Of a stretch of 64,000 nt of DNA, positions 1,488 through 64,000 are shown piece by piece. The first letter of the stretch is position 1, and the number at the start of each line of letters is the position of its first letter. A model generated the notes under the pieces. The model was not told the origin of the DNA and did no database searches. It saw nothing but the letters and a program-made list of their open reading frames with translations. Origin of the DNA: Ruegeria sp. SCSIO 43209. Lineage in GTDB: Bacteria > Pseudomonadota > Alphaproteobacteria > Rhodobacterales > Rhodobacteraceae. Position numbers and translations under genes: made by a program. The stretch is from positions 3,408,001-3,472,000 of the forward strand of contig NZ_CP065359.1 in the NCBI RefSeq assembly GCF_019904295.1, in the 5' to 3' direction.

Positions 1488-3665
1488 TTAGGAAACGGTT
1501 TGCGGTTTGGCGTTCGGATGGTTCGCCGGTGGTTGTCCGAGGGGGGTTTTCGGTTGAACCGACCCTGTCTTGGCCCGCCGTTTCAACTGGCGGATAACGA
1601 CGGGACATTTGTCCTCGGACTGGTAGAGCACCTGACAATGCAGGCAGGTGACGCACTCGTTCGGATTGATCTCACCGGTGGGGTGGATCGCCTGAACGGG
1701 GCATTCGTTGGCGCAGGTCTGACAGGGGGTGCCGCAATCCTTGTAGCGGCGCAGCCAGTCGAACATGCGGATACGGGCAGGGATCGCCAGCGCACCACCC
1801 AAGGGGCAGAGATAGCGGCAATAGAACCGTTCGATGAACAGCCCGATCCCCAGCAGGGTCAGCGCAAAGACCACGAAGGGCCAGTCGCGCATGAATTTCA
1901 GAATGATCGCAGTTTTGAACGGCTCGACCTCGGCATAGGTCTCAGCCAGCGGGATCGAGACAAAACTGATCCCGAACAACACGAGGAAGATCATGTATTT
2001 CGCGGGCCAGAGCCGCTCATTCAGGCCCCAGGGCAGTGTCCATTGCGGCACCTTGAAGGCCCGCGCGATCTTGTTGGTCAGTTCCTGCAGCGCGCCAAAC
2101 GGGCACAGCCAGCCGCAATAAGCACCCCGACCCCAGAACAGCAGCGCGGCAGCGACAGCGAACCATTGGATGAAGACCAACGGGTCCAGCAAGAAGGCAT
2201 CCCAAGAGAAGCCGGTGCGCAGACTGCCTGCCAGCGCCATCAAGTTCACGACGCTCAGCTGCGCATTGGCGTACCAGCCGATGAAGAACAGCGTCATGGT
2301 CAGGTATCCGATGCGGAACCAATAGAAGACGCGGGCGTTCATGGTGGCGTGGAACTGGAAGAAGAATGTCGCTGTCAGCACCAAAAGCATGACGCCCAGC
2401 ACCCCGATCTCAACCGTGCGATCCTTCCAGATGCGTTTCCAAAGCGCGGCCTTGGCTGCTGCCTCGCCGGTGGCGTCATCGACGACTACAGGGGCCGTAA
2501 CGGGCAGCAGATACTGCTCGGGCAGTTTGTAGCCCAGATCGAAGGTCAGAAAGGTCTTCTCAACCGCGCCCACAGCCCGCTGCGCCAACAGTTGCAGGCG
2601 GAAGGGCTCGGCCGGATCAAACTCGGCCTCAGCGGGGATCTTGAAGATGTCCAATTCCGTGAAGCTTGGGGCATCGGGTGCCGCAACCTTGCCTAACCGG
2701 CGCTGCTGCTTGTCGAAGAATCGCACCGAATTGTCGCCTTGGATCAACTGAATCCGGTCGAAAATCCCGCCCCGGACATAGCCCGAGCCCTTGAAGCTGT
2801 AGGCCCCACGCCCCAGCACCAGAATGGCCTGCTCGCCTTCGTCCAGCCAGTCGACCATGTTTTGATATTCGGCCTCACCCAGCAGCGACTTGCCGATCGA
2901 CGGCACGGATACCAACGCCATATGCATATCAATATAGGTGTCATCTGGTTCGCCGGGTTCAGGGCGTTTGATGGCGCGCTGATCTCCGGTGGCTTCGAAC
3001 GCAGCGTTGACCTGCCCGATATCCAGCGTTAGTCGCCGGACCGAGCCGTCGCCGGACAGGGTGGTCCAGTCGTATACCGCATCCTGCGCCAGATCGACTT
3101 CGCGTTTCGGCCCATCGGCCTGCAGCGGAGACAAACCGCCCAACCCCAACGCCCGCGCCACCTTGATGCCGCCGCGCACAAGACTGTCATCAATCACCAT
3201 GATCGTGACGGTGGCCCCCGAGATGATATCGAGGTCATGCCCCTCACCGCCGGTTTCAGCCTCAACCTTCAAGTCCAGACCGGCATAGCCTTCGGTCAGC
3301 TCAACCATGCGCGCGTTGGGGATGCCAATCAGAACGATGGGCTCCGAGTGTTTGACCAATTGCACACCGGTCAGCACCGCTTGATCATCGATGGCGGCGA
3401 CCACATGGATCGGTTTGCCGGAATAGCCGGTGGTGCCAACGAAGTCAGAGGTTAGGAAGGCCCAAGCAACGGTCTCGCCGGCCTTCAGAACGGGTGCAAC
3501 CGGAACGTCATCGCGGACCGGCCCAATGGCATCAGCACCGGGGGCCAGATCGGCGGGTTCAATCTCGGGCAGGAAGCTGGCGAGGCTGTCGGCATGGGCA
3601 CTAATCGCCATCAGGCAGGACAGGGCAAGGGCCAGCATTATATGGATTGCGCGACTTACGACCAC
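1488..3665 (-). CDS. nosR: NosR, membrane flavoprotein and polyferredoxin for N2O reductase
   Basis: NosR is needed for nosZ expression and for electron delivery from quinol to NosZ. The 725-residue protein has an N-terminal signal, a periplasmic FMN-binding domain with the covalent flavin motif SGATVT near residue 149, several membrane helices in the middle, two CxxxCP-type motifs (CGWLCPFG, CRYLCPLG) and C-terminal ferredoxin-like clusters (CGTPCQTCANECP and CVTCLHCQ...CP). The length is normal for the family. The start is GTG at 3665, supported by GGAGG six bases upstream, and overlaps the nosC stop by about 10 bp, so translation of the two is probably coupled. nosZ follows directly. Confidence 0.95.
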   Translation of the reverse strand: MVVSRAIHIMLALALSCLMAISAHADSLASFLPEIEPADLAPGADAIGPVRDDVPVAPVLKAGETVAWAFLTSDFVGTTGYSGKPIHVVAAIDDQAVLTGVQLVKHSEPIVLIGIPNARMVELTEGYAGLDLKVEAETGGEGHDLDIISGATVTIMVIDDSLVRGGIKVARALGLGGLSPLQADGPKREVDLAQDAVYDWTTLSGDGSVRRLTLDIGQVNAAFEATGDQRAIKRPEPGEPDDTYIDMHMALVSVPSIGKSLLGEAEYQNMVDWLDEGEQAILVLGRGAYSFKGSGYVRGGIFDRIQLIQGDNSVRFFDKQQRRLGKVAAPDAPSFTELDIFKIPAEAEFDPAEPFRLQLLAQRAVGAVEKTFLTFDLGYKLPEQYLLPVTAPVVVDDATGEAAAKAALWKRIWKDRTVEIGVLGVMLLVLTATFFFQFHATMNARVFYWFRIGYLTMTLFFIGWYANAQLSVVNLMALAGSLRTGFSWDAFLLDPLVFIQWFAVAAALLFWGRGAYCGWLCPFGALQELTNKIARAFKVPQWTLPWGLNERLWPAKYMIFLVLFGISFVSIPLAETYAEVEPFKTAIILKFMRDWPFVVFALTLLGIGLFIERFYCRYLCPLGGALAIPARIRMFDWLRRYKDCGTPCQTCANECPVQAIHPTGEINPNECVTCLHCQVLYQSEDKCPVVIRQLKRRAKTGSVQPKTPLGQPPANHPNAKPQTVS

Positions 3666-4120
3666 GGCGCACCTCCGATACTTAGGGTGGACGCCATGGA
3701 CGCGCGCAGGGCGCGTTCAGCAGTTTCTTGGGTCGGGCGCGGAGGTCCCCGGGTTTCGGGCCACAGCTTATGCGACTTGTACAACATGGAAGATTTGCTG
3801 TTCTGAAGCTGTACAACACGGAAGTTTCCGATTTGCGGTATCTGCACCAGCTCGGGTGCGGGCGCTGCACTGGTGACAGCGCACAGCGCGCAATCGGCGC
3901 ATTTTGGGCAGTACGCGGTCGGGTCTTCGGTGTCCTCCTCAAGATCAACTTCAACCCAGACCGCGCCGCCTTCCGAGCAGATCTCCATCCAGACACTTTC
4001 ACCGGGACTCGCCAGCACCGGTCCAAAGGCCTGCAACAACAGAAGGAATATGCCTGCCAACCCACATGCCGCGCGAGTTGCGCGTACAGGGAGATTGTGC
4101 AGAGGGATCAGGGCAGGCAT
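3656..4120 (-). CDS. nosC: NosC-like small secreted protein with CxxCxxC motif
   Basis: First gene of the nos operon. The 154-residue product starts with a signal-like segment (residues 12-37, ending LASPGES) and carries a cysteine cluster CPKCADCALC near residues 71-80. A small protein with CxxCxxC in front of nosR is what Paracoccus denitrificans calls NosC, whose function is unknown; the sequence also resembles DUF2946-type proteins. The symbol is given from position and motif only. The gene has a good Shine-Dalgarno (GGAGACTCC) and a Dnr/FNR-like palindrome 59 bp upstream. The C-terminal third is rich in Arg, Pro and Thr and has no recognisable domain. A metal-handling role for the cysteines is inference. 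Confidence 0.75.
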   Translation of the reverse strand: MPALIPLHNLPVRATRAACGLAGIFLLLLQAFGPVLASPGESVWMEICSEGGAVWVEVDLEEDTEDPTAYCPKCADCALCAVTSAAPAPELVQIPQIGNFRVVQLQNSKSSMLYKSHKLWPETRGPPRPTQETAERALRASMASTLSIGGAPWS

Positions 4121-4178
4121 GGAGTCTCCGACTCGGAAAGCTATGCCTTTGGGGTATTGGATTCTACCGAGTCGCGAC

Positions 4179-4192
4179 TTGACTTAGGTTAG
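4179..4192 (-). promoter_or_regulatory. Dnr/FNR-like box upstream of nosC-nosR-nosZ
   Basis: TTGAC-TTAG-GTTAG differs by one base from the TTGAC-N4-GTTAA boxes found in front of norC and nirE in this window. It ends 59 bp from the nosC start, the same distance seen for nirS, nnrS, norC and hemA, which supports a real activator site. It also gives the nos operon its own promoter after the end of the nir operon. Confidence 0.65.
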
Positions 4193-4222
4193 GTGAAGCA
4201 AATTTCTGATTTTCTTTTCAAA

Positions 4223-4486
4223 TCAATCGTCTGCCTCATCCATCAGGCCACGCACCCAGCACCCTGCCAGCCATGAGGCGGGCACGCCCAAGGGGATGGA
4301 CCATAAGATCGCAGGTACTGGTTCAATCGCACCAAACCCCGCGCTGTGCAGGATCAGCCCAGCCAGAAACAGGTTGATGGCCACAGTCAGAGCCGTGGCC
4401 GGATAAAGCAGGATGGCCAGCTTCCAGACCGGCCATTTGCCTTCAGTGGCTGGTGCCTTCCGAGAAGGTGATTTTGTTCCAGACAT
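4223..4486 (-). CDS. Small two-helix membrane protein at the end of the nir operon
   Basis: The 87-residue product begins [12 protein letters not shown], a short basic N-terminus, followed by two hydrophobic segments (about residues 20-43 and 48-68) and an acidic tail. I do not recognise the family. The ATG at 4486 overlaps the last 44 bp of nirN in another frame; a longer reading starting inside nirN is less likely because it only adds nirN shadow sequence. Position as the last gene of nirE-C-F-DL-G-H-J-N and before the separate nos promoter suggests a denitrification-linked membrane role, but that is inference only. Confidence 0.65.
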   Translation of the reverse strand: MSGTKSPSRKAPATEGKWPVWKLAILLYPATALTVAINLFLAGLILHSAGFGAIEPVPAILWSIPLGVPASWLAGCWVRGLMDEADD

Positions 4487-44928: not shown

Positions 44929-45000
44929 GATCTCCTTTCGTAACAGACACGTCACCCAAGGCGATCACGAGCAGGCACACCGCATTACCGGCGTGCTGCA

Positions 45001-45138
45001 CGTTCTCTTTCATCCGGACTGTAACCGTCGGCTCTGGCTTCTCACCAGATCTGCTGACACCCCGGAGACCGGGGCCGCTCGCGGGCTTACGGGTCATGCC
45101 CGCATACCGCCGGTGGGGAATTTCGCCCCGCCCTGAGA
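45001..45138 (-). promoter_or_regulatory. FMN riboswitch (RFN element) in front of ribH
   Basis: On the minus strand the RFN consensus can be followed: CTCAGGGCGGGGCGAAATTC, CCCACCGGCGGTA, AGCCCGCGAGCG, GGTGTCAGCAGATCTGGTGA, GAAGCCAGAGCCGACGGTTA and CAGTCCGGATGAAAGAGAAC. All conserved FMN-contact segments are present. It ends about 73 bases before the ribH start; the space between can form an expression platform (AACGTGCAGCACGCC-type stem). Confidence 0.95.
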
Positions 45139-45199
45139 ACGAGTGGGACCTTGCCAAGGAGATATCGCTTCTGCAAGAGAAATTGGCAGGAGGACGAAT

Positions 45200-53049: not shown

Positions 53050-54942
53050 GTGATCCCAGTGGAGCAATTGGCGTTTACATACGAAATGGGTGTGGTCTCG
53101 GCGCTTTTGGCCTTCACGGTGTTCTTGTTTGTGTCCGAGATTGTAAGGATCGATCTTTCGGCCATCCTGGTGTTGGTCATTGTGGGTCTGCTGAGTTATG
53201 CACCGGGTCTCGAAAATCTGGCAAATGTTCCTCATCTGTTTGACGGGTTTGCGTCCAATGCCGTGATTTCGATCATTGCGGTCATGATCGTAGGGGCGGG
53301 TTTGGATAAAACGGGGCTGATGAACAAGGTCGCGTCCGTCATTTTGAAATATGGTGGTAAGTCTGAAAACCGAGTGCTGCCGATCGTTTCGGGCACAGTC
53401 GGTGTTATCTCATCATTCATGCAAAATGTCGGGGCGGCGGCGTTGTTCCTGCCGGTGGTTAGCCGTATCTCATCGCGATCGGGTATTCCGTTGTCACGTT
53501 TGCTTATGCCCATGGGGTTTTGTGCCATTCTGGGGGGGACAATGACGATGGTCGGGTCCTCGCCCCTTATTCTGTTGAATGACCTGATCCAAACTGCAAA
53601 CGAAGGACTGCCCGAAGCTCAGAAGATGGAACCCTTTGGATTGTTTTCCGTTACCCCCATCGGTGCGGTGCTGATCTTAACGGGGATCGCATATTTCCTG
53701 CTGCTGGGACGTTGGGTGCTGCCGGGTGATTCAGGGTCGGAGAGTACGGGTACCGGGCGCGGGACTCAGGAATATCTTCAGCGGGTCTACGGGCTGAAGG
53801 CCGATGTGTTCGAGGTTGTGGTTCCGGCCGACAGCCCGCTGGTTGGGCAGATTCTGGCAGATATCAACTTTGAAAATCACCTCTATATCATCTCGACCTT
53901 TTATCGTGGCAAGACCTCGATGGTTCAGGTGTTAACAGCCGAGATTGCCGCACCCTGTCGATTAGCGATTGTGGGTCGGCGCTGGGTTGTCGAAGAGTTT
54001 GCCGAAAAGTACGGGCTGACGGTGCTGCCTGATCTGGATGTGTTTGTCGAAGAGTTCGCACCCACGAATGCTGGGGTCGCAGAGGTGGTCGTGACGCCTG
54101 ACAGCAAACTGATCGGCAAATGCCCTCGCGAATTGCTATTCCGCAAAACCTACGGAATGTCTTTGCTCGCCATCCACAGGGGTGAAGAGACGCTGAGTCA
54201 TGTCGAGACTGAGACGCATGAATCCACCCAGATCGGGCTTGAGAAGTTCAAGGCTGGCGACATGTTGGTTGCTCATACCCGCTGGGACAACCTGATGCGG
54301 ATAAAGCGTGATCCGGATTTTGTTGTGGTCACCTCGGACTTCCCGCAGGATGAATTGCGCCCGCAAAAGGTAGGCTGGGCGCTCTTGTTCTTCTTGATCT
54401 CATTGTCGCTGATCCTGTTCACGGATGTGCGGTTGTCGCTCTGCTTGCTGACCGGAGCCGCAGGAATGATGTTGACCCGGGTGCTCAGTGTTGACGAGGC
54501 GTATCGAGCAGTTGGATGGAACACGGTCTTTCTGCTGGCGTGTCTGATCCCGTTGGGTCAGGCGGTGCAGAATACCGGGACTGCGGCATGGATTGCGCAA
54601 CAGATCATGATCATCTTGGATGGATGGCCGAATTGGGCGCTACAGGCGGGCGTCGCCATTCTGGCGACGGCATTTTCTCTGGTCATGTCAAACGTCGGCG
54701 CGACGGTTCTGTTGGTGCCCCTTGCGGTTTCAATTGCGGTTGCGGCGGGTGCCAACCCGGCGGTCTTTGCATTAACCGTCGCGATTTCGACCTCGAACAG
54801 TTTCATTATCCCGACCCATCAGGTGAATGCGCTGATCATGGGGCCAGCTGGGTACAAAGTGACCGATTTCGTCCGTTCGGGCGGGATCATGACGATCATT
54901 TTCTTGATCGTCTCACTGTTGATGCTGAATGTGATTTTCTGA
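53050..54942 (+). CDS. SLC13-type anion transporter with two RCK_C (TrkA-C) domains
   Basis: The 630-residue protein has an N-terminal membrane half (residues 1-225), two cytosolic TrkA-C domains (about 245-325 and 335-420) and a C-terminal membrane half (435-630). The SLC13-type signatures are FMQNVGAAALFLPV in the first half and MSNVGATVLLVPLAV in the second. Relatives carry sulfate or other divalent anions with sodium or protons. The start codon GTG at 53050 is uncertain; an ATG lies at 53083. It precedes a putative sulfonate cluster, so a role in moving sulfate or sulfite is conceivable but unproven. Confidence 0.88.
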   Translation: MIPVEQLAFTYEMGVVSALLAFTVFLFVSEIVRIDLSAILVLVIVGLLSYAPGLENLANVPHLFDGFASNAVISIIAVMIVGAGLDKTGLMNKVASVILKYGGKSENRVLPIVSGTVGVISSFMQNVGAAALFLPVVSRISSRSGIPLSRLLMPMGFCAILGGTMTMVGSSPLILLNDLIQTANEGLPEAQKMEPFGLFSVTPIGAVLILTGIAYFLLLGRWVLPGDSGSESTGTGRGTQEYLQRVYGLKADVFEVVVPADSPLVGQILADINFENHLYIISTFYRGKTSMVQVLTAEIAAPCRLAIVGRRWVVEEFAEKYGLTVLPDLDVFVEEFAPTNAGVAEVVVTPDSKLIGKCPRELLFRKTYGMSLLAIHRGEETLSHVETETHESTQIGLEKFKAGDMLVAHTRWDNLMRIKRDPDFVVVTSDFPQDELRPQKVGWALLFFLISLSLILFTDVRLSLCLLTGAAGMMLTRVLSVDEAYRAVGWNTVFLLACLIPLGQAVQNTGTAAWIAQQIMIILDGWPNWALQAGVAILATAFSLVMSNVGATVLLVPLAVSIAVAAGANPAVFALTVAISTSNSFIIPTHQVNALIMGPAGYKVTDFVRSGGIMTIIFLIVSLLMLNVIF

Positions 54943-54951
54943 CCCTGTTAA

Positions 54952-56052
54952 TCACCCAGCTAGGCTGATCGTTTGGCCCTGCTCTGACGCCTGTTGTGCG
55001 GCAAGGCCGATACGCACGGCCCAAATCCCATCACGCAGTGAGACCTCGGGTTTGGCGCGCTCGCCCCTGACCAGCTCCAGAAAGCCTTTGTGCTGGTAAT
55101 AAGTCGAGCCATTGTGGTCGCCAGCCGCCAGCAACTCGGGATCAACGGGGATGTCGCGCTGGATTGGGCCTTTCGGTGCACGAGGGCTGATGATCAGCTG
55201 TGGTACAGGCGCGTCGCCCAAATGTTCGGGCCAGAAGCGGCCCGGGCCGGGCACAAGCGCTTCAATCTTGGCATCGCGCCCAATGGCCGAGATTTCTTCT
55301 TGATACCGCGAACCCTCGGCAAACATGCAAAGCTCGAGCATCGCGCGTGTGCCCGAAGCAAAATCGACAATGACATAGCCGTGGTCCAGAATATCTGGAG
55401 TATCGCCGTCATAAACTTCGTCCAAATGATTGACGGCTTGGCCACCGCTTGCGGAAACGCGAACCGGGTCTGATTGCAGGATCAGGCGCATGAGGTCGAA
55501 GAAGTGGCAACATTTTTCGACGAATGTACCGCCAGTGTTACGGTTGAACCGGTTCCAATTGCCGACCTTTTCGAGAAACGGAAAGCGGTGTTCGCGGATC
55601 GTGAGCATCTTGATCTCACCACCTGCGGTCGCTGCTTCATCGATCAGCGCCGTGATCGGGGGCATATAGCGATATTCCATCGCGACCCAGATCGGGTGCG
55701 GAAAATTGCGCTCTAACTCTTCAAGCCGTGCAAGATCGGCGGGATCAGTGAACAACGGTTTCTCGATTAACAGTGGCAGTGGGCGGGTTTCCGCAATCTC
55801 GGCCAGTTGATCAACATGCAGGTGGTTGGGGCTGGCGATGACCAGACAGTCCAGATCATTGACCGTCAGAAGGTCCTGAAGGGAAGACACCATCTGCGCG
55901 TCGGGTGCAATCGCCTGCGCCTTATGCGCCATCTCCGGGTCGGGTTCGAAGATTGCGGCGACTCGTGTGCCCTCAAGCAGAGCAATGTTGTGCAGGTGTT
56001 CCTGCCCCATCATACCGCATCCGATCAGCCCATAGTTGGTGGTCCGGGTCAT
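54952..56052 (-). CDS. Gfo/Idh/MocA family oxidoreductase
   Basis: A 366-residue NAD(P)-dependent dehydrogenase with N-terminal Rossmann motif GLIGCGMMGQEHLHN, the EKP catalytic lysine in LLIEKPLFT, and the conserved GGTFVEKCCHFFDLMR with Asp and His. Such enzymes act on sugars or inositols. It is in an apparent two-gene operon after the GntR gene (12-bp gap) and divergent from the monooxygenase operon, so it likely acts on the same carbon source. The exact substrate cannot be told. Confidence 0.92.
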   Translation of the reverse strand: MTRTTNYGLIGCGMMGQEHLHNIALLEGTRVAAIFEPDPEMAHKAQAIAPDAQMVSSLQDLLTVNDLDCLVIASPNHLHVDQLAEIAETRPLPLLIEKPLFTDPADLARLEELERNFPHPIWVAMEYRYMPPITALIDEAATAGGEIKMLTIREHRFPFLEKVGNWNRFNRNTGGTFVEKCCHFFDLMRLILQSDPVRVSASGGQAVNHLDEVYDGDTPDILDHGYVIVDFASGTRAMLELCMFAEGSRYQEEISAIGRDAKIEALVPGPGRFWPEHLGDAPVPQLIISPRAPKGPIQRDIPVDPELLAAGDHNGSTYYQHKGFLELVRGERAKPEVSLRDGIWAVRIGLAAQQASEQGQTISLAG

Positions 56053-56064
56053 GCGCAGTTCCTT

Positions 56065-56775
56065 TTATTTCAGGCGTTGAACGTATGTGGCTCGATCTGA
56101 ATCAAACCATGTTTTTGAAAACTCGATAGGTTCAGCTTTCTCAGACCAACTGAACCGTTCGATATACCCTGCGGCTTGGCCCGCAGGTTTGGTGAAGCCT
56201 TCAGGAGTCCAGTCGGGCAGGGCACTGACAGAAACGCGATCCTCTGCCCGAGTGATCCAGAAGCCAAGTTGTTGCTGGTAATAGCGATAAAGCGAGTCGG
56301 ACAGCAGGTTCTGGTCTATGGTCCCGGCTGATTCGTCCAGCCAGATTTCTTCGACCGCGATGATTGTGTCATTCAGATAACGCATCCGGCGTACGCGCGA
56401 ACCGCTATCAGACAGGCCGAACTTCGGCAGCTTCGCAGGCTTCTTGAGATGATCAACTGACAGAATATCGGCACGCGGCAACCCGCCGCCTTCGGGCAGT
56501 TCCAGCCGGAACATCGCATAGACGCTGTTCTGCGTTCCGGTCTCGCGGATGTAGTTGCCCGAACCCTGAATACGCTCCAACATGCCTTTTTTCTCAAGCT
56601 CGGCGAGGGATTTTCGCAAGGTCCCGACCGAGACATTTAGGTTCGAAGCCATGTCCCGTTCAGGTGGAAGACGCTCACCATCAATCAGACGGCCCGCAGC
56701 TATATCGCGGATCAGAAGCTCTGAGATCTGGACATAGATCGGCAGGGCGTTGGGGTTGCGGCTGTTGGCGGACAT
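56065..56775 (-). CDS. GntR family (HutC subfamily) regulator
   Basis: The protein of about 236 residues has a winged-helix GntR domain (LPIYVQISELLIRDIAAGRL, PPERDMASNLNVSVGTLRKSL) and a UTRA effector domain of the HutC/FarR kind (ADILSVDHLKKPAKL to SWSEKAEPIEFSKTWF). The start MSANSRN at 56775 is preferred over 56814, which lies in the intergenic operator region. It is the probable local repressor of the divergent monooxygenase-TRAP operon, with a sugar or sugar-derived ligand. Confidence 0.92.
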   Translation of the reverse strand: MSANSRNPNALPIYVQISELLIRDIAAGRLIDGERLPPERDMASNLNVSVGTLRKSLAELEKKGMLERIQGSGNYIRETGTQNSVYAMFRLELPEGGGLPRADILSVDHLKKPAKLPKFGLSDSGSRVRRMRYLNDTIIAVEEIWLDESAGTIDQNLLSDSLYRYYQQQLGFWITRAEDRVSVSALPDWTPEGFTKPAGQAAGYIERFSWSEKAEPIEFSKTWFDSDRATYVQRLK

Positions 56776-56815
56776 TGAGGGCGCTTCACTCGGTCGCAGG
56801 AAAAATTGATACACT

Positions 56816-56831
56816 ATTGATCTACATCAAT
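56816..56831. promoter_or_regulatory. Perfect FNR-type palindrome in the GntR-monooxygenase intergenic region
   Basis: ATTGAT-CTAC-ATCAAT matches the FNR consensus TTGAT-N4-ATCAA exactly. A second ATTGAT lies 11 bp upstream at 56805, so overlapping direct repeats could instead be a GntR operator. The palindrome ends 50 bp before the monooxygenase start. Confidence 0.6.
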
Positions 56832-56880
56832 GCGCTTGCTACGCAAGAGGAAAGTCAAAGATGTACGGAGCGTGAATCAA

Positions 56881-58035
56881 ATGACCATCGTCCCCATCAC
56901 ATCCCCCGACCTGGATGCGGCCGAGGTTTCGTGGTTTGCAGCGCTTTGCTCGGATGACTACCAGTTTCTGGGTGTGCCCGATGGTGAACTGCGATCCAGC
57001 TGGGAGCATTGTTCAGGCATCGTGAAAGAGGCCGAGGCGCAAGGCTTTCGCAATATCCTGTGCCCATCGTCTTATCAGGTCGGACAGGACACCCTGAGCT
57101 TTGTTGCAGGTTGCGCGCCGATTACCGAAAACATCAACCTGCTGGCCGCCGTGCGCTGTGGCGAGATGCAGCCCATCATGCTGGCCCGTACCATCGCGAC
57201 GCTGGACCACATGCTTAAGGGGCGGTTGACAGTCAACATCATCTCGTCCGATTTCCCGGGCGAGAAAGCCGACAGTGCGTACCGCTATCAGCGTTCGCGC
57301 GAAGTGGTCGAGATCCTGAAACAGGCCTGGACGCAGGACGAAATCAACCATGCGGGCGAGGTCTATAACTTTTCAGGCCTGACCACCGACCCGGCTCGGC
57401 CTTACCAGACCGGTGGCCCACTGCTGTATTTCGGCGGCTACTCGCCGTCTGCTTTGGACCTGTGCGGCGAGCATTGCGATGTCTACCTGATGTGGCCGGA
57501 AACAAAGGATCAGTTGGCCGAGCGGATGAAAGCCGTTCATGCGGTTGCCGAGAATTACAATCGTACTCTGGACTACGGTCTGCGCGTCCACATGATTGTT
57601 CGCGATACCGAGGCTGAGGCACAGGAGTACGCCGACTACATCGTCTCGAATCTGGATGACGAATATGGTCGTGCGATCCGCGAGCGGGCACTGGACGCGA
57701 CATCCTTGGGCGTGGCGCATCAATCCAAGAACCGCGATCTGGCCGACGAATATGGCTATGTCGAACCTGGACTGTGGACCGGCGTCGGACGCGCACGGTC
57801 GGGCTGTGGTGCTGCGCTGGTCGGTTCGACCGATCAAGTTATGTCTAAAATCGAAGAGTATCAGAAGATGGGCATCCGCGCCTTCATCTTCTCGGGCTAC
57901 CCGCACATGGACGAGGCCAAGCATTTTGGCGCCCGTGTGATGCCCAACCTGAAAACCTGCTCGCTTCCCGAAGCTTACGGGCGCGTGCCAGCAACCACCC
58001 CGGCAACCCCGCTGGGCAACGGAGTTCGTCGCTGA
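56881..58035 (+). CDS. FMNH2-dependent sulfonate-type monooxygenase (SsuD/SmoC-like)
   Basis: The 384-residue protein is a bacterial luciferase-like monooxygenase of the alkanesulfonate (SsuD) type. SsuD active-site patterns are readable: GLRVHMIVRDT (Arg-x-His), VGRARSGCGAALVGS and SGYPHMDEA (Tyr and His). It should split a C-S bond of a sulfonate using O2 and FMNH2, releasing sulfite and an aldehyde. Together with the following aldo-keto reductase and flavin reductase the set equals the SmoC-SmoB-SmoA core of sulfoquinovose breakdown; the sugar substrate is inferred. Start ATG 56881 is chosen because the frame from 56830 runs through the operator. Confidence 0.85.
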   Translation: MTIVPITSPDLDAAEVSWFAALCSDDYQFLGVPDGELRSSWEHCSGIVKEAEAQGFRNILCPSSYQVGQDTLSFVAGCAPITENINLLAAVRCGEMQPIMLARTIATLDHMLKGRLTVNIISSDFPGEKADSAYRYQRSREVVEILKQAWTQDEINHAGEVYNFSGLTTDPARPYQTGGPLLYFGGYSPSALDLCGEHCDVYLMWPETKDQLAERMKAVHAVAENYNRTLDYGLRVHMIVRDTEAEAQEYADYIVSNLDDEYGRAIRERALDATSLGVAHQSKNRDLADEYGYVEPGLWTGVGRARSGCGAALVGSTDQVMSKIEEYQKMGIRAFIFSGYPHMDEAKHFGARVMPNLKTCSLPEAYGRVPATTPATPLGNGVRR

Positions 58036-58925
58036 TGCAACGTGTGAAACTATCTGACACGCTGGAAATGAGCCGTCTTGTCTATGGCATGTGGCGCTTG
58101 GGTGATGACAGTGACACCTCGACTGCGTATGTTGAGGCCAAGATTCAGGCCTGTCTGGATCAGGGCATCACCACCTTCGATCAGGCCGACATTTATGGCG
58201 GATACGCGGCCGAAGCCGTTCTGGGCAATGCCTTGCGCACCAATCCCAGCCTGCGCCAGAAAATGGAGATCGTCACTAAATGTGACATCGTCGCGCCGAT
58301 GGGGCGTTATGCCGAGGCCAAGGTCAAATATTACGACACGTCGCGTGCGCATATTCTGAAATCGGTCGATACATCTCTGTCGGAAATGGCGATCGACCAC
58401 ATCGACTTGCTACTGATCCACCGCCCGGATCCAATGATGGATCACCATGAAACCGGTGCAGCGCTGGATGAGGTGGTTGCCAGTGGCAAGGTCGGCGCGG
58501 TTGGTGTGTCCAACTTCCGCCCTTGGGACTGGTCTTTGCTGCAGTCGGCGATGAAAACCCAATTGGTCACCAATCAGGTCGAGATATCTCTGGGCGAGAT
58601 CAGCCCGTTCACCAACGGTGATCTGGCGTTCCATCAACAGCATGGTCACCCGCTTATGGCGTGGTCTCCACTGGGTGGAGGCCTTTTGATGGCCGGGAAT
58701 CCACCGGTCGGCGTTGTAGCGGATGAGATCGCCGCAGAATTCGGGGTGGATCGCGCCGCTGTGGCCGTTGCCTTCCTGCTCGCGCATCCAGCAAGCATAC
58801 TGCCTGTTCTGGGCACAAATAATCTGGGCCGTATCAAACGCGCCTCGGATGCGTTGAAGGTCAAGCTGGATCGTGAAAGCTGGTACCGCCTGTATGAGGC
58901 GGCGCTGGGACATGAGGTGCCATGA
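58035..58925 (+). CDS. Aldo-keto reductase
   Basis: A 296-residue NAD(P)H-dependent aldo-keto reductase. The catalytic tetrad is visible: Asp and Tyr in FDQADIYGGYAAE, Lys in IVTKCDI and His in LLLIHRPDP. The cofactor-binding end reads LGTNNLGRIKRA. It begins at the last base of the monooxygenase stop, so the two are co-translated. In the sulfo-SMO pathway such an enzyme (SmoB) reduces 6-oxo-glucose from desulfonation to glucose; here that is a working idea. Confidence 0.9.
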   Translation: MQRVKLSDTLEMSRLVYGMWRLGDDSDTSTAYVEAKIQACLDQGITTFDQADIYGGYAAEAVLGNALRTNPSLRQKMEIVTKCDIVAPMGRYAEAKVKYYDTSRAHILKSVDTSLSEMAIDHIDLLLIHRPDPMMDHHETGAALDEVVASGKVGAVGVSNFRPWDWSLLQSAMKTQLVTNQVEISLGEISPFTNGDLAFHQQHGHPLMAWSPLGGGLLMAGNPPVGVVADEIAAEFGVDRAAVAVAFLLAHPASILPVLGTNNLGRIKRASDALKVKLDRESWYRLYEAALGHEVP

Positions 58926-59440
58926 TGAACGCAATCTCGCGCGATATGAACCATACATTCGTCCCGCATAAGGACGACACGCGAACCCTGCGCGATGCTT
59001 TTGGCCGTTTTGCCACCGGAGTTACTGTCGTGACCTGCGACAGCGAGGATGGGCCAATCTGCATTACCGCCAACAGCTTTTCGTCCCTGTCGCTGGATCC
59101 GCCGCTGGTGATGTGGGCGGGCGACCGCAATTCGCGCCGGTTCCGCTATTTTCACGCGGCGCGTCACTTCAGTGTGCATGTTCTGTCTGCTGAACAGGCC
59201 GAGCTGTGCTTTGGCTGTTCAAAAGACGCCCATGCGCTGCGTGATATCGAACATGACCGTTGTGAAAACGGCACCCCGTTGTTGCCGGGCAGTCTTGCCC
59301 GGTTCGAATGCGAGCAGCACGCTTATCACGATGCAGGCGATCATGTGATCGTGGTGGGCAAAGTTCTGAAAGTCAGCATGGCGGATGGAGACGCGCTGAC
59401 GTTCTTTGCCGGAAAACTCGGCCAATTCGCGCAGAGCTAA
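58922..59440 (+). CDS. Flavin reductase (NADH:FMN, split-barrel type)
   Basis: A 172-residue flavin reductase-like protein (DIM6/HpaC type) with DAFGRFATGVTVVTC, ITANSFSSLSLDPPLVMW and HVIVVGKVLKVS. It provides reduced FMN to the monooxygenase two genes upstream. It overlaps the end of the aldo-keto reductase by 4 bp, forming one operon. The N-terminal 20 residues are variable. Confidence 0.92.
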   Translation: MMNAISRDMNHTFVPHKDDTRTLRDAFGRFATGVTVVTCDSEDGPICITANSFSSLSLDPPLVMWAGDRNSRRFRYFHAARHFSVHVLSAEQAELCFGCSKDAHALRDIEHDRCENGTPLLPGSLARFECEQHAYHDAGDHVIVVGKVLKVSMADGDALTFFAGKLGQFAQS

Positions 59441-59454
59441 GCGCGATATGACGA

Positions 59455-59473
59455 CTGCGGGTCAAACCCGCAG
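59455..59473 (+). terminator. Stem-loop between flavin reductase and TRAP genes
   Basis: CTGCGGGT-CAA-ACCCGCAG, a perfect 8-bp stem without a T-tract. It may set different mRNA levels for enzymes and transporter. Confidence 0.45.
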
Positions 59474-59493
59474 CTGACAGTGGGAGGATCCGC

Positions 59494-60081
59494 ATGGGCG
59501 GACTGGCATCGGCGTTGACGCCGATTGCATTCGTGAACGAAACCGTGCTGCGTCTGGGCCGCGCGGTCGGTGTTGTTGCGATTGCAGTTATGGTTATCGC
59601 GATCCTGATTCAGGTGTTCTTCCGATATGTCTTGGGTAACGCACTGCCATGGCCGGATGAGGCTGCCCGGTTCTGCATGCTCTGGATGACGGGCCTGATG
59701 GCCCCCACAGCTTTCCGTCGCGGAGGGTTCGTCGCCATCGATATGCTTGCGCGCTTCCTGCCGCGCGTGCTTGGTCAATCGCTCAATTTGTTCCTGCTGC
59801 TGATCTCGCTGGCCGTGCTGCTTGTTGCGGTCAATATCGGCTGGTCTGAGGTTACGGGCTTTGGTGGCCGGTTCGCCACTGCGGCGTTGTACCTGCCTAC
59901 CTCTTTCGGGTTCGATGAATGGTACCGTATTCCGCGCAGTTGGATGATGGCCTCGCTGCTGGTTGGGATCATCTTGCTGATCTCGGTCAATATCGAACTG
60001 ATCTTGCGGTCGATAGTAACCATGTTGGGCGGAGCACATCTTTTGCCTGAAATTCCCGAAGCTGCGGTGGGGGCTGAATAA
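59494..60081 (+). CDS. TRAP transporter small membrane subunit (DctQ type)
   Basis: The 195-residue protein has four transmembrane segments and the family pattern RYVLGNALPWPDEAARFCMLWM. DctQ forms the membrane complex with the large DctM subunit next to it. GGGAGGATCCGC precedes the start; the stop abuts the DctM gene. Confidence 0.93.
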   Translation: MGGLASALTPIAFVNETVLRLGRAVGVVAIAVMVIAILIQVFFRYVLGNALPWPDEAARFCMLWMTGLMAPTAFRRGGFVAIDMLARFLPRVLGQSLNLFLLLISLAVLLVAVNIGWSEVTGFGGRFATAALYLPTSFGFDEWYRIPRSWMMASLLVGIILLISVNIELILRSIVTMLGGAHLLPEIPEAAVGAE

Positions 60082-61371
60082 ATGCTGATTTGGTTCCTGC
60101 CCACCTTCCTGATTTTCCTGCTGATCGGCCTGCCGGTCTTTTTCGCACTGCTGGCAGCGCCCGGCATTCTGCTATGGCTCAGCGGTCAGACCAACGACAT
60201 TACGCTGCTCTATCGCAATGTCTATAACGGTATGGATAGCTTCCCGCTGATGGCGATCCCTTTCTTCATGCTGGCCGGAGAACTGATGAACCGGGGCGGC
60301 ATCACCATCCGACTTGTGGAGTTCAGCCAGGCCCTGATGGGCCACCTGCGGGGCGGCCTTGCGCATGTGAACGTCCTCAGCTCGATCCTGTTCGCGGGCC
60401 TTTCAGGGTCCGCTGTCGCCGATACTTCGGCGCTTGGGTCAATGCTGATCCCGGCGATGGAGAAGCAAGGCTATACCCGCAAATTTGCCGCCGCGATCAC
60501 GGCAGCCAGTTCGGTGATCGGGCCGATCATCCCGCCCTCGGGCATCATGATCATCTATGCCTATGTCATGGGTGAAAGTGTGGCTGCGCTCTTTCTCGCT
60601 GGCATCGTGCCTGGGGTCATGGTCGGTGTCGGTTTGATGCTCATGATCAAGCTGATGGCGGATCGCTACGACTTCCCGGTCGCCAGCCGTAAATACACTT
60701 GGCCGGAACGCCGTCAGGCCAGCCTAAAGGCGTTCTTCCCACTGATGACCCCTGTGATCATCCTGGGCGGAATACTGGGTGGCATCTTTACCCCGACCGA
60801 GGCTGCCGCTGTCGCCGTAGGGTATGCCTTCATCATCGGTTTCTTCGTCCTGCGCACATTGACGTGGAAAGAAGTCCCCGAAGTGCTCAGCAACGCAGGC
60901 ATGACCTCAGCTGTCGTCCTGTTGTTGGTCGGGGCGGCAATGGCCTTCAAGACGGTCGTTAGTCTTAGCCATGCGCCGGAGCAGCTGGCCTCGCTAATCC
61001 TCAGCCTGTCGGAAAACCCGCTGATCCTGCTGTTCCTGATCAACCTGCTGCTGTTCATCGTCGGAATGTTCCTGGATGCAGGCCCCGCTATTATCATCCT
61101 TGGCCCGATCCTCGGTCCGATCTTCACCAGCCTCGGTGTAGACCCGATCCATTTTGCCATTATCATGAGCGTCAACCTGACTGTCGGTCTGGCCACCCCG
61201 CCCATGGGGCTGGTGCTGTTCGTAGCCGCCGCCGTGTCTCGGGAACGGGTTGAAACCATCGCCAAGGCAATCCTGCCGTTTCTGGCGGTCGAAATCATCG
61301 TGATCTTCTTGATCACATACATCCCCGCACTATCCATGACGATCCCGAGGATAACGGGATTTGCAAACTGA
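60082..61371 (+). CDS. TRAP transporter large membrane subunit (DctM type)
   Basis: The 429-residue DctM protein has about 12 membrane segments, with conserved FAGLSGSAVADTSALGSML, PPSGIMIIYAYVMGES and LATPPMGLVLFVAA. It is the substrate channel with sodium coupling in tripartite TRAP systems. Its end overlaps the frame before the solute receptor gene. Confidence 0.95.
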   Translation: MLIWFLPTFLIFLLIGLPVFFALLAAPGILLWLSGQTNDITLLYRNVYNGMDSFPLMAIPFFMLAGELMNRGGITIRLVEFSQALMGHLRGGLAHVNVLSSILFAGLSGSAVADTSALGSMLIPAMEKQGYTRKFAAAITAASSVIGPIIPPSGIMIIYAYVMGESVAALFLAGIVPGVMVGVGLMLMIKLMADRYDFPVASRKYTWPERRQASLKAFFPLMTPVIILGGILGGIFTPTEAAAVAVGYAFIIGFFVLRTLTWKEVPEVLSNAGMTSAVVLLLVGAAMAFKTVVSLSHAPEQLASLILSLSENPLILLFLINLLLFIVGMFLDAGPAIIILGPILGPIFTSLGVDPIHFAIIMSVNLTVGLATPPMGLVLFVAAAVSRERVETIAKAILPFLAVEIIVIFLITYIPALSMTIPRITGFAN

Positions 61372-61396
61372 ACTGAGTATCACAGGGAGGAAACGC

Positions 61397-62458
61397 ATGC
61401 TCAGAAGATTTATCAAAACCGCAGCGGTGGCCACGTCGCTAGTGGCCGCGTCTGCGATTGCCGCGGCAGCCGCCGACTACACGCTACGCGCCACAGCAAA
61501 CTCGAATGAAAACGACGAAGACTATGACGGTCTGGTCGTTTTTAAGAACTACGTTGAGGCGGCCTCGAACGGAGCCATTGAGGTTGAGCTGTTCATCGGT
61601 ACGCAGCTCTGCTCGAACGGTGCCGAGTGTCTGCAGGGCGTGGCAGACGGTACGATCGACATCTACATCTCAACCTCTGGAGGGGCCTCGGGCATCTTCC
61701 CTTACGTGCAGGTTCTGGACCTGCCTTACCTGATGGCCGATGACCGCATTGCCGAACATGTCCTATCTGGTGATTTCACCCGGCAGATGCGCGACATGGC
61801 GCTGGAGGATTCCGGCGGTGCGATCCGTCTGATGACAATCGGCAATACAGGTGGCTGGCGCAACTTCGCCAATACACAACGCCGTGTCGCCGAGCCGGCT
61901 GACATGGAAGGTCTGAAAATCCGCACCGTGGTTGCCGACCTGCCGCAGGAGCTGGTCAAAGCACTGGGTGCATCACCGACCCCGATCCCGTGGCCAGAAC
62001 TGTTCACCAGCTTCCAGACCGGCGTGGTTGAGGGCTCGAAAAACGGCATCACTGACATCATGGGTATGAAGTTCCCTGATGCAGGCCTGCAATATGTCAC
62101 GCTGGATGGGCATGCCTACATGGGTGCGCTGTGGTGGATGAACAACGCCAAGTTCCAGGAGATGCCAGAAGATATGCGCCGCGTGGTAGTCGACGGGTTT
62201 TATGCGCTGCAGCAGGCGACCTTTGCCTCACCCAAGCGCAAGTCGATTCAGGCTTATGAGGATTTCGTTGCCGGTGGCGGGGACCTCTATGTTCTGACAC
62301 CCGACCAGAAAGCTGCGTTCAAAGAAGCCGCAACCCCGGTCTATGACTGGTTCCAGTCCAATGTGGCACGTGGTGATGAGATCTTTGTAGCGTTGACTGA
62401 CGCTGTGGCAGCAGCCGAGGCGGATGTTAATGCCTCACGTGATGCGGATCTGAACTGA
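61397..62458 (+). CDS. TRAP transporter solute-binding protein (DctP type)
   Basis: The 353-residue precursor has a signal peptide ending SAIAAAAADY (residues 1-30) and the DctP fold with IYISTSGGASGIFPYVQVLDLPYL, the ligand-binding Arg region GLKIRTVVADLPQELVKALGASPTPIPW and GVVEGSKNGITD. The start at 61397 has GGGAGGAAACGC upstream. The carboxylate-binding Arg suggests an anionic ligand, in line with a sulfonate or sugar acid. Confidence 0.93.
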   Translation: MLRRFIKTAAVATSLVAASAIAAAAADYTLRATANSNENDEDYDGLVVFKNYVEAASNGAIEVELFIGTQLCSNGAECLQGVADGTIDIYISTSGGASGIFPYVQVLDLPYLMADDRIAEHVLSGDFTRQMRDMALEDSGGAIRLMTIGNTGGWRNFANTQRRVAEPADMEGLKIRTVVADLPQELVKALGASPTPIPWPELFTSFQTGVVEGSKNGITDIMGMKFPDAGLQYVTLDGHAYMGALWWMNNAKFQEMPEDMRRVVVDGFYALQQATFASPKRKSIQAYEDFVAGGGDLYVLTPDQKAAFKEAATPVYDWFQSNVARGDEIFVALTDAVAAAEADVNASRDADLN

Positions 62459-62488: not shown

Positions 62489-62959
62489 TCACCGAAACGG
62501 GTACATCCACCCTTTGTAGTCGTTGACCAGAACATGCGCCTTCTCGATCTGCTCCGGCGACATTTTTTTGACCACTTCTTCAAGGCTGATCGCCGCATCG
62601 GGGTCGCCGCCGATGGCGCTGAGCGTATACCACATGTACGCTCGAACCAGATCAGGAGCGGGCATGCCCAGACCCAACTCGTAGTACCAACCGATACCGG
62701 ATTGCGCCCCGGGATGACCTTTCATCGAGGCGCGCAAGTACCATTCAAACGCGCGTTCATAGTCCTGTTCGACCCCAAGGCCCAACCCGTACATCACACC
62801 GATCAATTCCTCGGCTTCGGCATTGCCGGAGCGCGCGGCGGGCAGCAATTCCTCACGCGCGGCTTCAAACTCTCCGGCCTCCATCAGATCGCGTGCTTGT
62901 TCCAGTTCAGCCAGCGCTGGGGTCGCGAGAAGGCACAGGGCAAATACAAACTGGCGCAT
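62489..62959 (-). CDS. Secreted Sel1-repeat (TPR-like) protein
   Basis: The 156-residue precursor has a signal peptide (MRQFVFALCLLATPALA) and at least two Sel1-like repeats (AEAEELIGVMYGLGLGVEQDYERAFEWYLRAS and GAQSGIGWYYELGLGMPAPDLVRAYMWYTLSA), each of 36 residues. Such repeats mediate protein contacts. The open frame runs much further upstream, but the signal peptide and AGGAAAG upstream set the start at 62959. It is divergent from the dihaem peroxidase gene. Function unknown. Confidence 0.85.
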   Translation of the reverse strand: MRQFVFALCLLATPALAELEQARDLMEAGEFEAAREELLPAARSGNAEAEELIGVMYGLGLGVEQDYERAFEWYLRASMKGHPGAQSGIGWYYELGLGMPAPDLVRAYMWYTLSAIGGDPDAAISLEEVVKKMSPEQIEKAHVLVNDYKGWMYPFR

Positions 62960-62974
62960 GGGGTTGCTTTCCTC

Positions 62975-64000
62975 TTGGCAGGGGCTGCGGCAGCTCAGGA
63001 ATTGCCGCGCCCGCTGACGGATGACGATTTCATCCCCTTTGATATGGAACAGGCCGCTATCGGTCATCAACTGTTTTACGATCCCATTTTGTCGGGAAAC
63101 CGGAACATAAGCTGCGCCCATTGCCATCACCCGGATTTCGGCACCTCGGACGGCTTGTCGCTTGGCATCGGAGAAGGCGGGATGGGCTTGGGGCCAGACC
63201 GGACGCCGGGCATCGGAGCGGACAAAATCCGCAAGCGAATTCCCCGCAATTCGCCGGGGCTTTGGAACCTTGGCGCAAAGGAGCTTCACACGGTTTTCCA
63301 TGATGGCCGTCTGAGTATCTCTGACGTCTACGGTAACGGTTTCAACTCACCCGCGCAGGAGTGGTTGCCGGACGGCTTGAATTCGCTGCTGGCCGCGCAG
63401 GCGCTTTTCCCGCTGACTTCGCAGTTTGAAATGGCCGGAAATGTGGCCGAAAATCAAGTCACCGGCGCGGTGCATGACCGCATCGACAAGGGCTGGCCGA
63501 TCCTCGCCAAACGCGTGCGCACTGATCCGCGCTATGGGCCTGCCATGGTCAAGGCGTTCGATGACATCGACACGACCGAGGACATCACGATAACTCAGAT
63601 CACCAACGCGCTGGCCGCGTTCATGGCACTGGAGTGGCGCAGCACCAACAGCCCGTTTGATCAATATCTGGCCGGAGACCATGCCGCTCTGACGCCAGAG
63701 CAATACGATGGTATGACCTTGTTCTATGGTGAGGCAGGTTGCGCAAACTGCCATTCCGGCCCGTTGCTATCGGATCAAAAATTCCACGCGCTGAGCTTGC
63801 CGCCATTTGGACCGGGCAAGACCCGCCAATGGGACCCCTATGCCCGCGACGTGGGTCATATGGGTGAAAGCAACCGTCTTGAGGACGCCTATCGTTTCCG
63901 CACACCGATGCTGCGCAATGTGACAGAGACGGCGCCCTATGGTCACAACGGTGCCTTTCCCGATCTGGAAGGCATTATTCGCCACCACTTGAACCCATCT
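62975..64000 (+). CDS. Dihaem cytochrome c peroxidase / MauG-like protein (3' end beyond window)
   Basis: The open frame reads to the window edge without a stop, with two c-haem motifs, CAHCHHPDF near 63113 and CANCHSGPL near 63740, and family features ISGNRNISCAHC-like (ILSGNRNIS), PRNSPGLWNLG, FHDGRL and TPMLRNVTETAPYGHNGAF near the edge. This is the bacterial cytochrome c peroxidase/MauG family. A signal-like stretch (GVAFLLAGAAAAQELP) precedes the mature part, but no ATG is in frame; TTG at 62975, CTG at 62951 or an upstream start are possible. The substrate cannot be told; the position is next to a Sel1-repeat gene. Confidence 0.85.
   Translation, partial: MAGAAAAQELPRPLTDDDFIPFDMEQAAIGHQLFYDPILSGNRNISCAHCHHPDFGTSDGLSLGIGEGGMGLGPDRTPGIGADKIRKRIPRNSPGLWNLGAKELHTVFHDGRLSISDVYGNGFNSPAQEWLPDGLNSLLAAQALFPLTSQFEMAGNVAENQVTGAVHDRIDKGWPILAKRVRTDPRYGPAMVKAFDDIDTTEDITITQITNALAAFMALEWRSTNSPFDQYLAGDHAALTPEQYDGMTLFYGEAGCANCHSGPLLSDQKFHALSLPPFGPGKTRQWDPYARDVGHMGESNRLEDAYRFRTPMLRNVTETAPYGHNGAFPDLEGIIRHHLNPS

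Follow-up and report, generated by a model that had tools for sequence, protein, structure and literature searches.

A predicted sulfoquinovose monooxygenase operon with a TRAP transporter and a GH188 sulfoquinovosidase in Ruegeria sp. SCSIO 43209

Within a stretch of 64,000 nucleotides from the genome of Ruegeria sp. SCSIO 43209 (contig NZ_CP065359.1, positions 3,408,001 to 3,472,000; hereafter the window, with positions counted from its first letter), we identified a gene cluster predicted to encode the sulfoquinovose monooxygenase (sulfo-SMO) pathway together with a tripartite ATP-independent periplasmic (TRAP) transporter. Under our reading, to which we assign a probability of roughly 80%, the transporter DctPQM would carry out import, the sulfoquinovosidase SqgA would release sulfoquinovose, and SmoC and SmoB would break it down. 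Based on its sequence, the locus is a real sulfo-SMO operon of a kind that is already known; the newer part is the importer, and a second look is merited by its assignment, its occurrence with two pathways, and a linked pair of genes encoding MauG-like and Sel1-repeat proteins. Sulfoquinovose, a sulfur-containing sugar found in the membranes of plants and algae, is among the largest pools of organic sulfur, and its known consumers in the sea include Roseobacter bacteria.

The gene for SmoC, a predicted sulfoquinovose monooxygenase dependent on reduced flavin mononucleotide (FMNH2), lies at 56881..58035 on the plus strand. Over residues 18-400 of the open reading frame (ORF), SmoC matched PDB chains 7olf and 7oh2 with 711 and 708 bits, respectively, whereas the other alkanesulfonate monooxygenases among the matches listed scored ≤192 bits (192 for 7jv3, 177 for SsuD 1nqk). 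The two chains are deposited under the names “Methanesulfonate sulfonatase” and “Alkanesulfonate monooxygenase,” and we take them to be SmoC structures of the sulfoquinovose pathway. SmoB (58035..58925, plus strand), an aldo-keto reductase predicted to act as a 6-dehydroglucose reductase, matched 7bby with 409 bits, and the next family reached 211 bits; 7bby, deposited as “Aryl-alcohol dehydrogenase,” is presumably SmoB. The third gene (58922..59440, plus strand) encodes a flavin reductase (PF01613, 119 bits) of the FerA/HpaC type that would fill the role of SmoA; it scored 200 bits with the FerA model, below the cut-off of 260. The sequence shared by the smoC and smoB genes is TGATG, and that shared by smoB and the flavin reductase gene is ATGATG, in agreement with the original prediction.

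A sulfo-SMO cluster has been defined by the presence of SmoB and SmoC homologs within one cluster (PMC13372026). Here, proteins of both types (711 bits for SmoC, 409 bits for SmoB) are encoded by overlapping genes, with the flavin reductase in the same unit. Because SmoC and SmoB both match the solved chains closely, with SsuD far below for SmoC, we assign the locus to the sulfo-SMO pathway. We looked for TauE-type proteins in connection with sulfite disposal, and the six matches in the genome all fall outside the window.

Divergent from smoC, a Gfo/Idh-family gene occupies 54952..56052 on the minus strand, outside the interval 56065..62458 to which the original prediction had confined the cluster. 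Its product matched PDB chains 8zn9 (555 bits; deposited as “Oxidoreductase, putative”), 8qc2 (386 bits), and 8qc3 (379 bits), and the other solved Gfo/Idh proteins listed scored ≤53 bits. The main-text parts of PMC10755693 name 8qc2 and 8qc3 as FlSqgA and ArSqgA, and they give K107, Y136, R166, L170, K172, E189, H193, and H321 as the ArSqgA residues for catalysis or for contact with the sugar or sulfonate, with R166, L170, and K172 in the sulfonate site. All eight equivalents are identical in the Ruegeria protein (K98, Y127, R156, L160, K162, E179, H183, and H313, from the alignment and numbered by hand count); Glu163, named in the same parts of PMC10755693, could not be placed with certainty in the alignment. 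On these matches and contact residues, the protein is assigned as SqgA, a GH188 NAD+-dependent sulfoquinovosidase. The gene had been read as a Gfo/Idh dehydrogenase divergent from the smo genes, and although its orientation was correct, its identity as a dehydrogenase was not; the associated statements that no sulfoquinovosidase was present, and that the substrate may therefore be free sulfoquinovose or another sugar sulfonate, no longer stand with a GH188 enzyme adjoining the cluster. We detected no GH31 match in the genome, and the same search was positive in 6 of 14 control genomes. Since SqgA is encoded beside the cluster, the operon could serve sulfoquinovose glycosides, and since it has no signal peptide (by eye), we take the enzyme to be cytoplasmic and its substrate to be imported intact.

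The three TRAP genes follow the flavin reductase gene on the plus strand, as originally described: dctQ (small permease, 59494..60081; PF04290, 77 bits), dctM (large permease, 60082..61371; TIGR00786, 441 bits, above cut-off), and dctP (periplasmic solute-binding protein, 61397..62458; PF03480, 181 bits). They are contiguous, and PF03480, PF04290, and PF06808 all scored over their cut-offs. A regulator of the GntR/UTRA type, probably local, is encoded at 56065..56814 on the minus strand (PF00392, 58 bits; PF07702, 74.5 bits), divergent from smoC like sqgA. Every ORF named in the original prediction lies on the strand given there, and profile matches place each in the stated family.

To describe how widely this layout occurs, we scanned named genomes, which gave at least 572 related stretches, and analyzed the 80 best. 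All eight genes, in the same order and on the same strands within 9 kb, were present in 63 of these 80 loci, which argues against a chance arrangement, and gntR was divergent from smoC in all 80. Five loci had part of the set, and four of these lie close to the end of a contig. Among the genera in which the full set was found are Ruegeria, Phaeobacter, Tateyamaria, Cognatishimia, Tritonibacter, Planktotalea, and Roseibium, making this a common cluster of marine alphaproteobacteria. The enzymes themselves are not new to this group: according to the main-text parts of Kaur et al. 2023 (PMC10755693), GH188 is near-universal in the sulfo-SMO clusters of marine Roseobacter bacteria, and its occurrence there, with the same enzymes as here, is thus already published. 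The importer is not discussed in those parts, and it may be drawn in the figures or supplement.

Presence and absence of the importer follow those of the enzymes within the genus. SqgA was found in 41 of 54 genus genomes and DctP (≥649 bits) in 41 of 54; comparing the lists by eye, these are the same 41 genomes, and both proteins are missing from the other 13. Further DctP matches listed in these genomes scored ≤163 bits. SmoC showed the same pattern in the 37 of the 54 genomes that were covered for it (28 with, 9 without). We then surveyed 149 genomes of the family with a threshold of E 1e-100 for SmoC and DctP, which detected SmoC in 61 genomes and DctP in 54: 40 had both, 14 had DctP only, 21 had SmoC only, and 74 had neither (odds ratio 10 and p 5.8e-10 in a Fisher test that makes no correction for kinship among the 149 genomes). 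The best 13 DctP candidates were scored per genome, with many genomes having more, and some DctP absences may therefore be misses.

The 14 DctP-only genomes are informative about the ligand, and we opened the stretches around DctP in all of them. GH188 was present in the same stretch as DctP in 11 of the 14, and the RFPFLxK motif of the sulfonate site was present in all 11 of those GH188 proteins. A sulfoquinovose-isomerase-like gene and a PfkB kinase gene were found in nine stretches, a LacD/DeoC-type aldolase in eight, and a DeoR regulator in eight. In the nine genomes concerned, all without SmoC (L130-L134, L137-L139, and L141), GH188, the isomerase-like protein, and PfkB are all encoded near the same TRAP genes, and eight of these nine also have the LacD-type aldolase. 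Four of the isomerase-like proteins were compared with NCBIfam model NF048012 and scored 254-285 bits, below the cut-off of 700. These stretches look like clusters of the sulfoglycolytic Embden-Meyerhof-Parnas (sulfo-EMP) type, in which the isomerase-like protein, PfkB, and LacD-type aldolase would replace the SmoC, SmoB, and flavin reductase of the window, whereas the same DctPQM remains near GH188. Two other DctP-only stretches have a different content: L136 encodes GntR, SqgA, SmoB, the flavin reductase, and the TRAP proteins with no SmoC, and in L135, where no Smo enzymes are encoded, SqgA-GntR immediately adjoins the TRAP genes; each is a possible remnant or variant.

In a tree of 42 DctP rows, from which the L141 DctP was left out because its piece gave just 3 residues ahead of a stop, the DctPs of SMO and EMP-like contexts interleave: the eight EMP-linked proteins need four label changes, at least three of which are forced by well-supported branches. 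Common to both contexts are the first stages of the pathway, import plus GH188, and this makes sulfoquinovose or its glycoside the most likely cargo of the TRAP transporter. The presence of the same transporter near GH188 in the sulfo-EMP-like clusters points in the same direction, and on this comparison of gene neighborhoods, both contexts probably have sulfoquinovose or one of its glycosides as their substrate.

Several results weigh against this account of the importer. DctQ is missing in 12 of the 80 named loci despite ≥5.8 kb of sequence after smoC. In the family survey, 21 of the 61 SmoC genomes lack this DctP at E 1e-100, so the SMO pathway does not need it; we opened six SmoC-only stretches, and this DctP was in none of them. 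Conversely, three DctP-only stretches (L140, L142, and L143) show no GH188, nor do the further flanks of L142 and L143. In the loci without TRAP genes that we looked at (five by Pfam), no clear replacement importer was found. No solved TRAP binding protein is close to DctP (best match, 121 bits), and its AlphaFold model is weak (mean pLDDT, the predicted local distance difference test score, 66.8), with the stretches below 50 including residues 69-85, 152-157, and 206-225, so the pocket is not readable.

These results bear most on the explanation that the enzymes degrade sulfoquinovose while the TRAP transporter carries a different acid, being a neighbor by chance or through shared ecology, with sulfoquinovose entering the cell by another transporter. 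The SmoC genomes without DctP and the DctP-only stretches without GH188 are what this explanation would lead one to expect. However, the TRAP genes share the orientation of the smo genes and are still found close to GH188 where the rest of the pathway is different, the presence or absence of SqgA and DctP agrees in 54 of 54 genus genomes, and the EMP- and SMO-linked DctPs interleave. We therefore regard a different acid as unlikely. Still less probable, at a level that we consider slight, is that enzymes of sulfoquinovose ancestry now act on another sulfosugar such as sulfofucose; the sub-threshold NF048012 scores of the isomerase-like proteins in the relatives and the distance of DctP from any solved relative would fit, but the sulfofucose pathway in the parts of PMC12421959 consulted is an Entner-Doudoroff-type route with ABC (ATP-binding cassette) importers. 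SmoC, SmoB, and SqgA are, moreover, close to chains taken as sulfoquinovose enzymes, and the SqgA contacts are kept at all eight positions. An SsuD-like operon scavenging sulfur from alkanesulfonate or methanesulfonate can practically be dismissed: SmoC does match the NCBIfam SsuD model TIGR03565, but its 237 bits are less than half of the cut-off of 518, its score to SmoC-type chains exceeds that to any other listed alkanesulfonate monooxygenase several times over, and SmoB and GH188 are, to our knowledge, not expected in an ssu operon.

Returning to sulfoquinovose catabolism with TRAP import, we infer catalysis, transport, regulation, and whether the free sugar or a glycoside is taken up from the observed gene content, protein families, residue conservation, linkage, and co-occurrence. 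The cargo of DctPQM would be sulfoquinovose itself or, with greater likelihood, one of its glycosides, for instance sulfoquinovosyl glycerol. Cytoplasmic SqgA would use a transient, NAD+-dependent oxidation to release sulfoquinovose from the glycoside. The flavin reductase would give FMNH2 to SmoC, which with O2 would split the C-S bond to yield sulfite and 6-dehydroglucose, and SmoB would reduce the latter to glucose. Control of the cluster probably lies with the divergent GntR protein, acting on a conserved direct repeat described below.

Within DctP, Arg155, Arg176, Cys72, and Cys78 are invariant in 33 aligned rows. We take Arg155 and Arg176 to lie at the usual TRAP ligand site; the two cysteines, present in all 33 rows, could form a disulfide and serve as a signature of the clade. 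The binding protein of an isethionate TRAP transporter (PDB 8t9t) belongs to the same family at a distance (101.5 bits); in comparison with that protein, the predicted ligand of DctP is a sugar sulfonate.

The Agrobacterium-type sulfo-SMO cluster has an ABC importer, SmoEFGH, and a GH31 enzyme, whereas the window has TRAP and GH188. SmoEFGH genes were not found beside the smo genes, where the TRAP genes lie, in a search limited to the locus. We considered a TRAP-to-ABC swap at the same position, using Pfam on the ORFs of five non-TRAP loci, and could not demonstrate one. Sugar-type ABC genes are nearby in L074 and L077, and L057 has an ABC ATPase gene on the other strand; two ABC binding proteins from non-TRAP loci match sugar-binding ABC proteins weakly. 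In the parts of PMC9594981 consulted, the sulfo-SMO (sulfo-ASMO) systems of Agrobacterium tumefaciens and Novosphingobium aromaticivorans have, as here, SmoC, SmoB, and the flavin reductase together. Our literature search found no titles or abstracts linking sulfoquinovose with TRAP, although such a link may still be in print. In the parts of PMC11236759, PMC11659671, PMC10507020, and PMC12421959 that mention TRAP, the mentions are unrelated to sulfoquinovose uptake, and the word sulfoquinovose is absent from PMC12661815, on Roseobacter genomes.

Downstream of dctP, two genes extend the module beyond 62458, where the original prediction had ended it. A Sel1-repeat protein is encoded at 62489..62959 on the minus strand, convergent to dctP (PF08238, 58 bits), and a MauG-like di-heme c-type protein is encoded from 62975 on the plus strand and runs off the window end at 64000. 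Both genes are present together in 55 of 64 DctP-bearing rows (63 loci and the window), and in no row does either occur alone, a count that was the same with the full Sel1 ORF or the Sel1 part alone as query. Of the nine rows without the pair, six have ≥5 kb downstream and three end sooner. Nine of the 14 DctP-only stretches also carry the pair, at most about 6 kb away from dctP, several of them of the sulfo-EMP type with GH188. The Sel1 and MauG-like genes are thus linked to the TRAP module. One of the six SmoC-only stretches (L147) has a MauG-like gene without a Sel1 gene.

The two genes are divergent from each other (window 62489-64000; L150:2490-4244). The first 114 residues of the Sel1 ORF read antisense to the MauG-like gene, with Met115 at 62959, and the protein then starts with a signal-peptide-like sequence (by eye). 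The MauG-like protein is 68% identical to that of L137 over 63038-63997; its start at 62975 is provisional, and its stop would fall at window coordinate 64243. In L150, the open frame spans 2976-4244 and has two CxxCH motifs (by eye). The MauG-like protein scored 251 bits with TIGR03981, below the cut-off of 340, and ≤106 bits with solved di-heme cytochrome c peroxidases and MauG. We found no tie between MauG-like or Sel1 proteins and sulfoquinovose in the literature searched.

The intergenic region between gntR and smoC contains a conserved direct repeat, ATTGATACAC(T/C)ATTGAT(C/T)TAC, at 56805..56830. An exact copy is found in 67 of 81 rows, and 79 have one with no more than two mismatches (rows related by descent). 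The genome holds a single perfect copy of the repeat core, with the next best site at two mismatches. An FNR-like palindrome, TTGATCTACATCAA (56817-56830), overlaps the repeat upstream of the gene for the oxygen-dependent monooxygenase. The palindrome (TTGAT-N4-ATCAA) is perfect in 57 of 81 rows, compared with 0.03 in simulated sequence and with the rows again related by descent; in a shorter intergenic stretch, it is present in 45 of 72 rows, nine having been dropped because their start was unrecognized. The genome has 11 TTGAT-N4-ATCAA sites. FNR-type control of the operon was set aside as a lead only, since the left half of the palindrome belongs to the direct repeat. The repeat is kept where the right half is lost, which suggests that the palindrome may be secondary. 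The simplest reading is that the repeat serves the GntR protein as its own operator or acts as a core promoter.

Three start codons were revised. SmoC likely starts at ATG 56881 rather than at 56830, because the solved chains begin at ORF residue 18 and positions 56805-56847 are taken up by a conserved non-coding element. DctP likely starts at ATG 61397 rather than at TTG 61361, because its relatives are 353 aa long, and GntR likely starts at Met14, near 56775. A CitMHS/SLC13-type transporter gene with TrkA_C domains adjoins sqgA (window 53050-54942); it was near the cluster only in L002 and L006 among the 80 loci, placing it outside the conserved module. Elsewhere in the window, an FMN riboswitch was detected at 44998-45144 on the minus strand (113 bits).

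We tentatively propose, at somewhat less than even odds, that the TRAP clade is dedicated to importing sulfoquinovose glycosides in marine alphaproteobacteria, serving sulfo-SMO and sulfo-EMP-like pathways interchangeably and working with a periplasmic MauG-like/Sel1 module. The parts of the literature examined do not name a Roseobacter sulfoquinovose importer. If the association of this clade with GH188 across pathways is borne out, the clade would serve to mark sulfolipid-sugar uptake in genomes and metagenomes from the sea, and ligand-binding tests would have a defined target. A further question, raised by the MauG-like and Sel1 genes, is what chemistry in the periplasm, if any, forms part of sulfoquinovose uptake.

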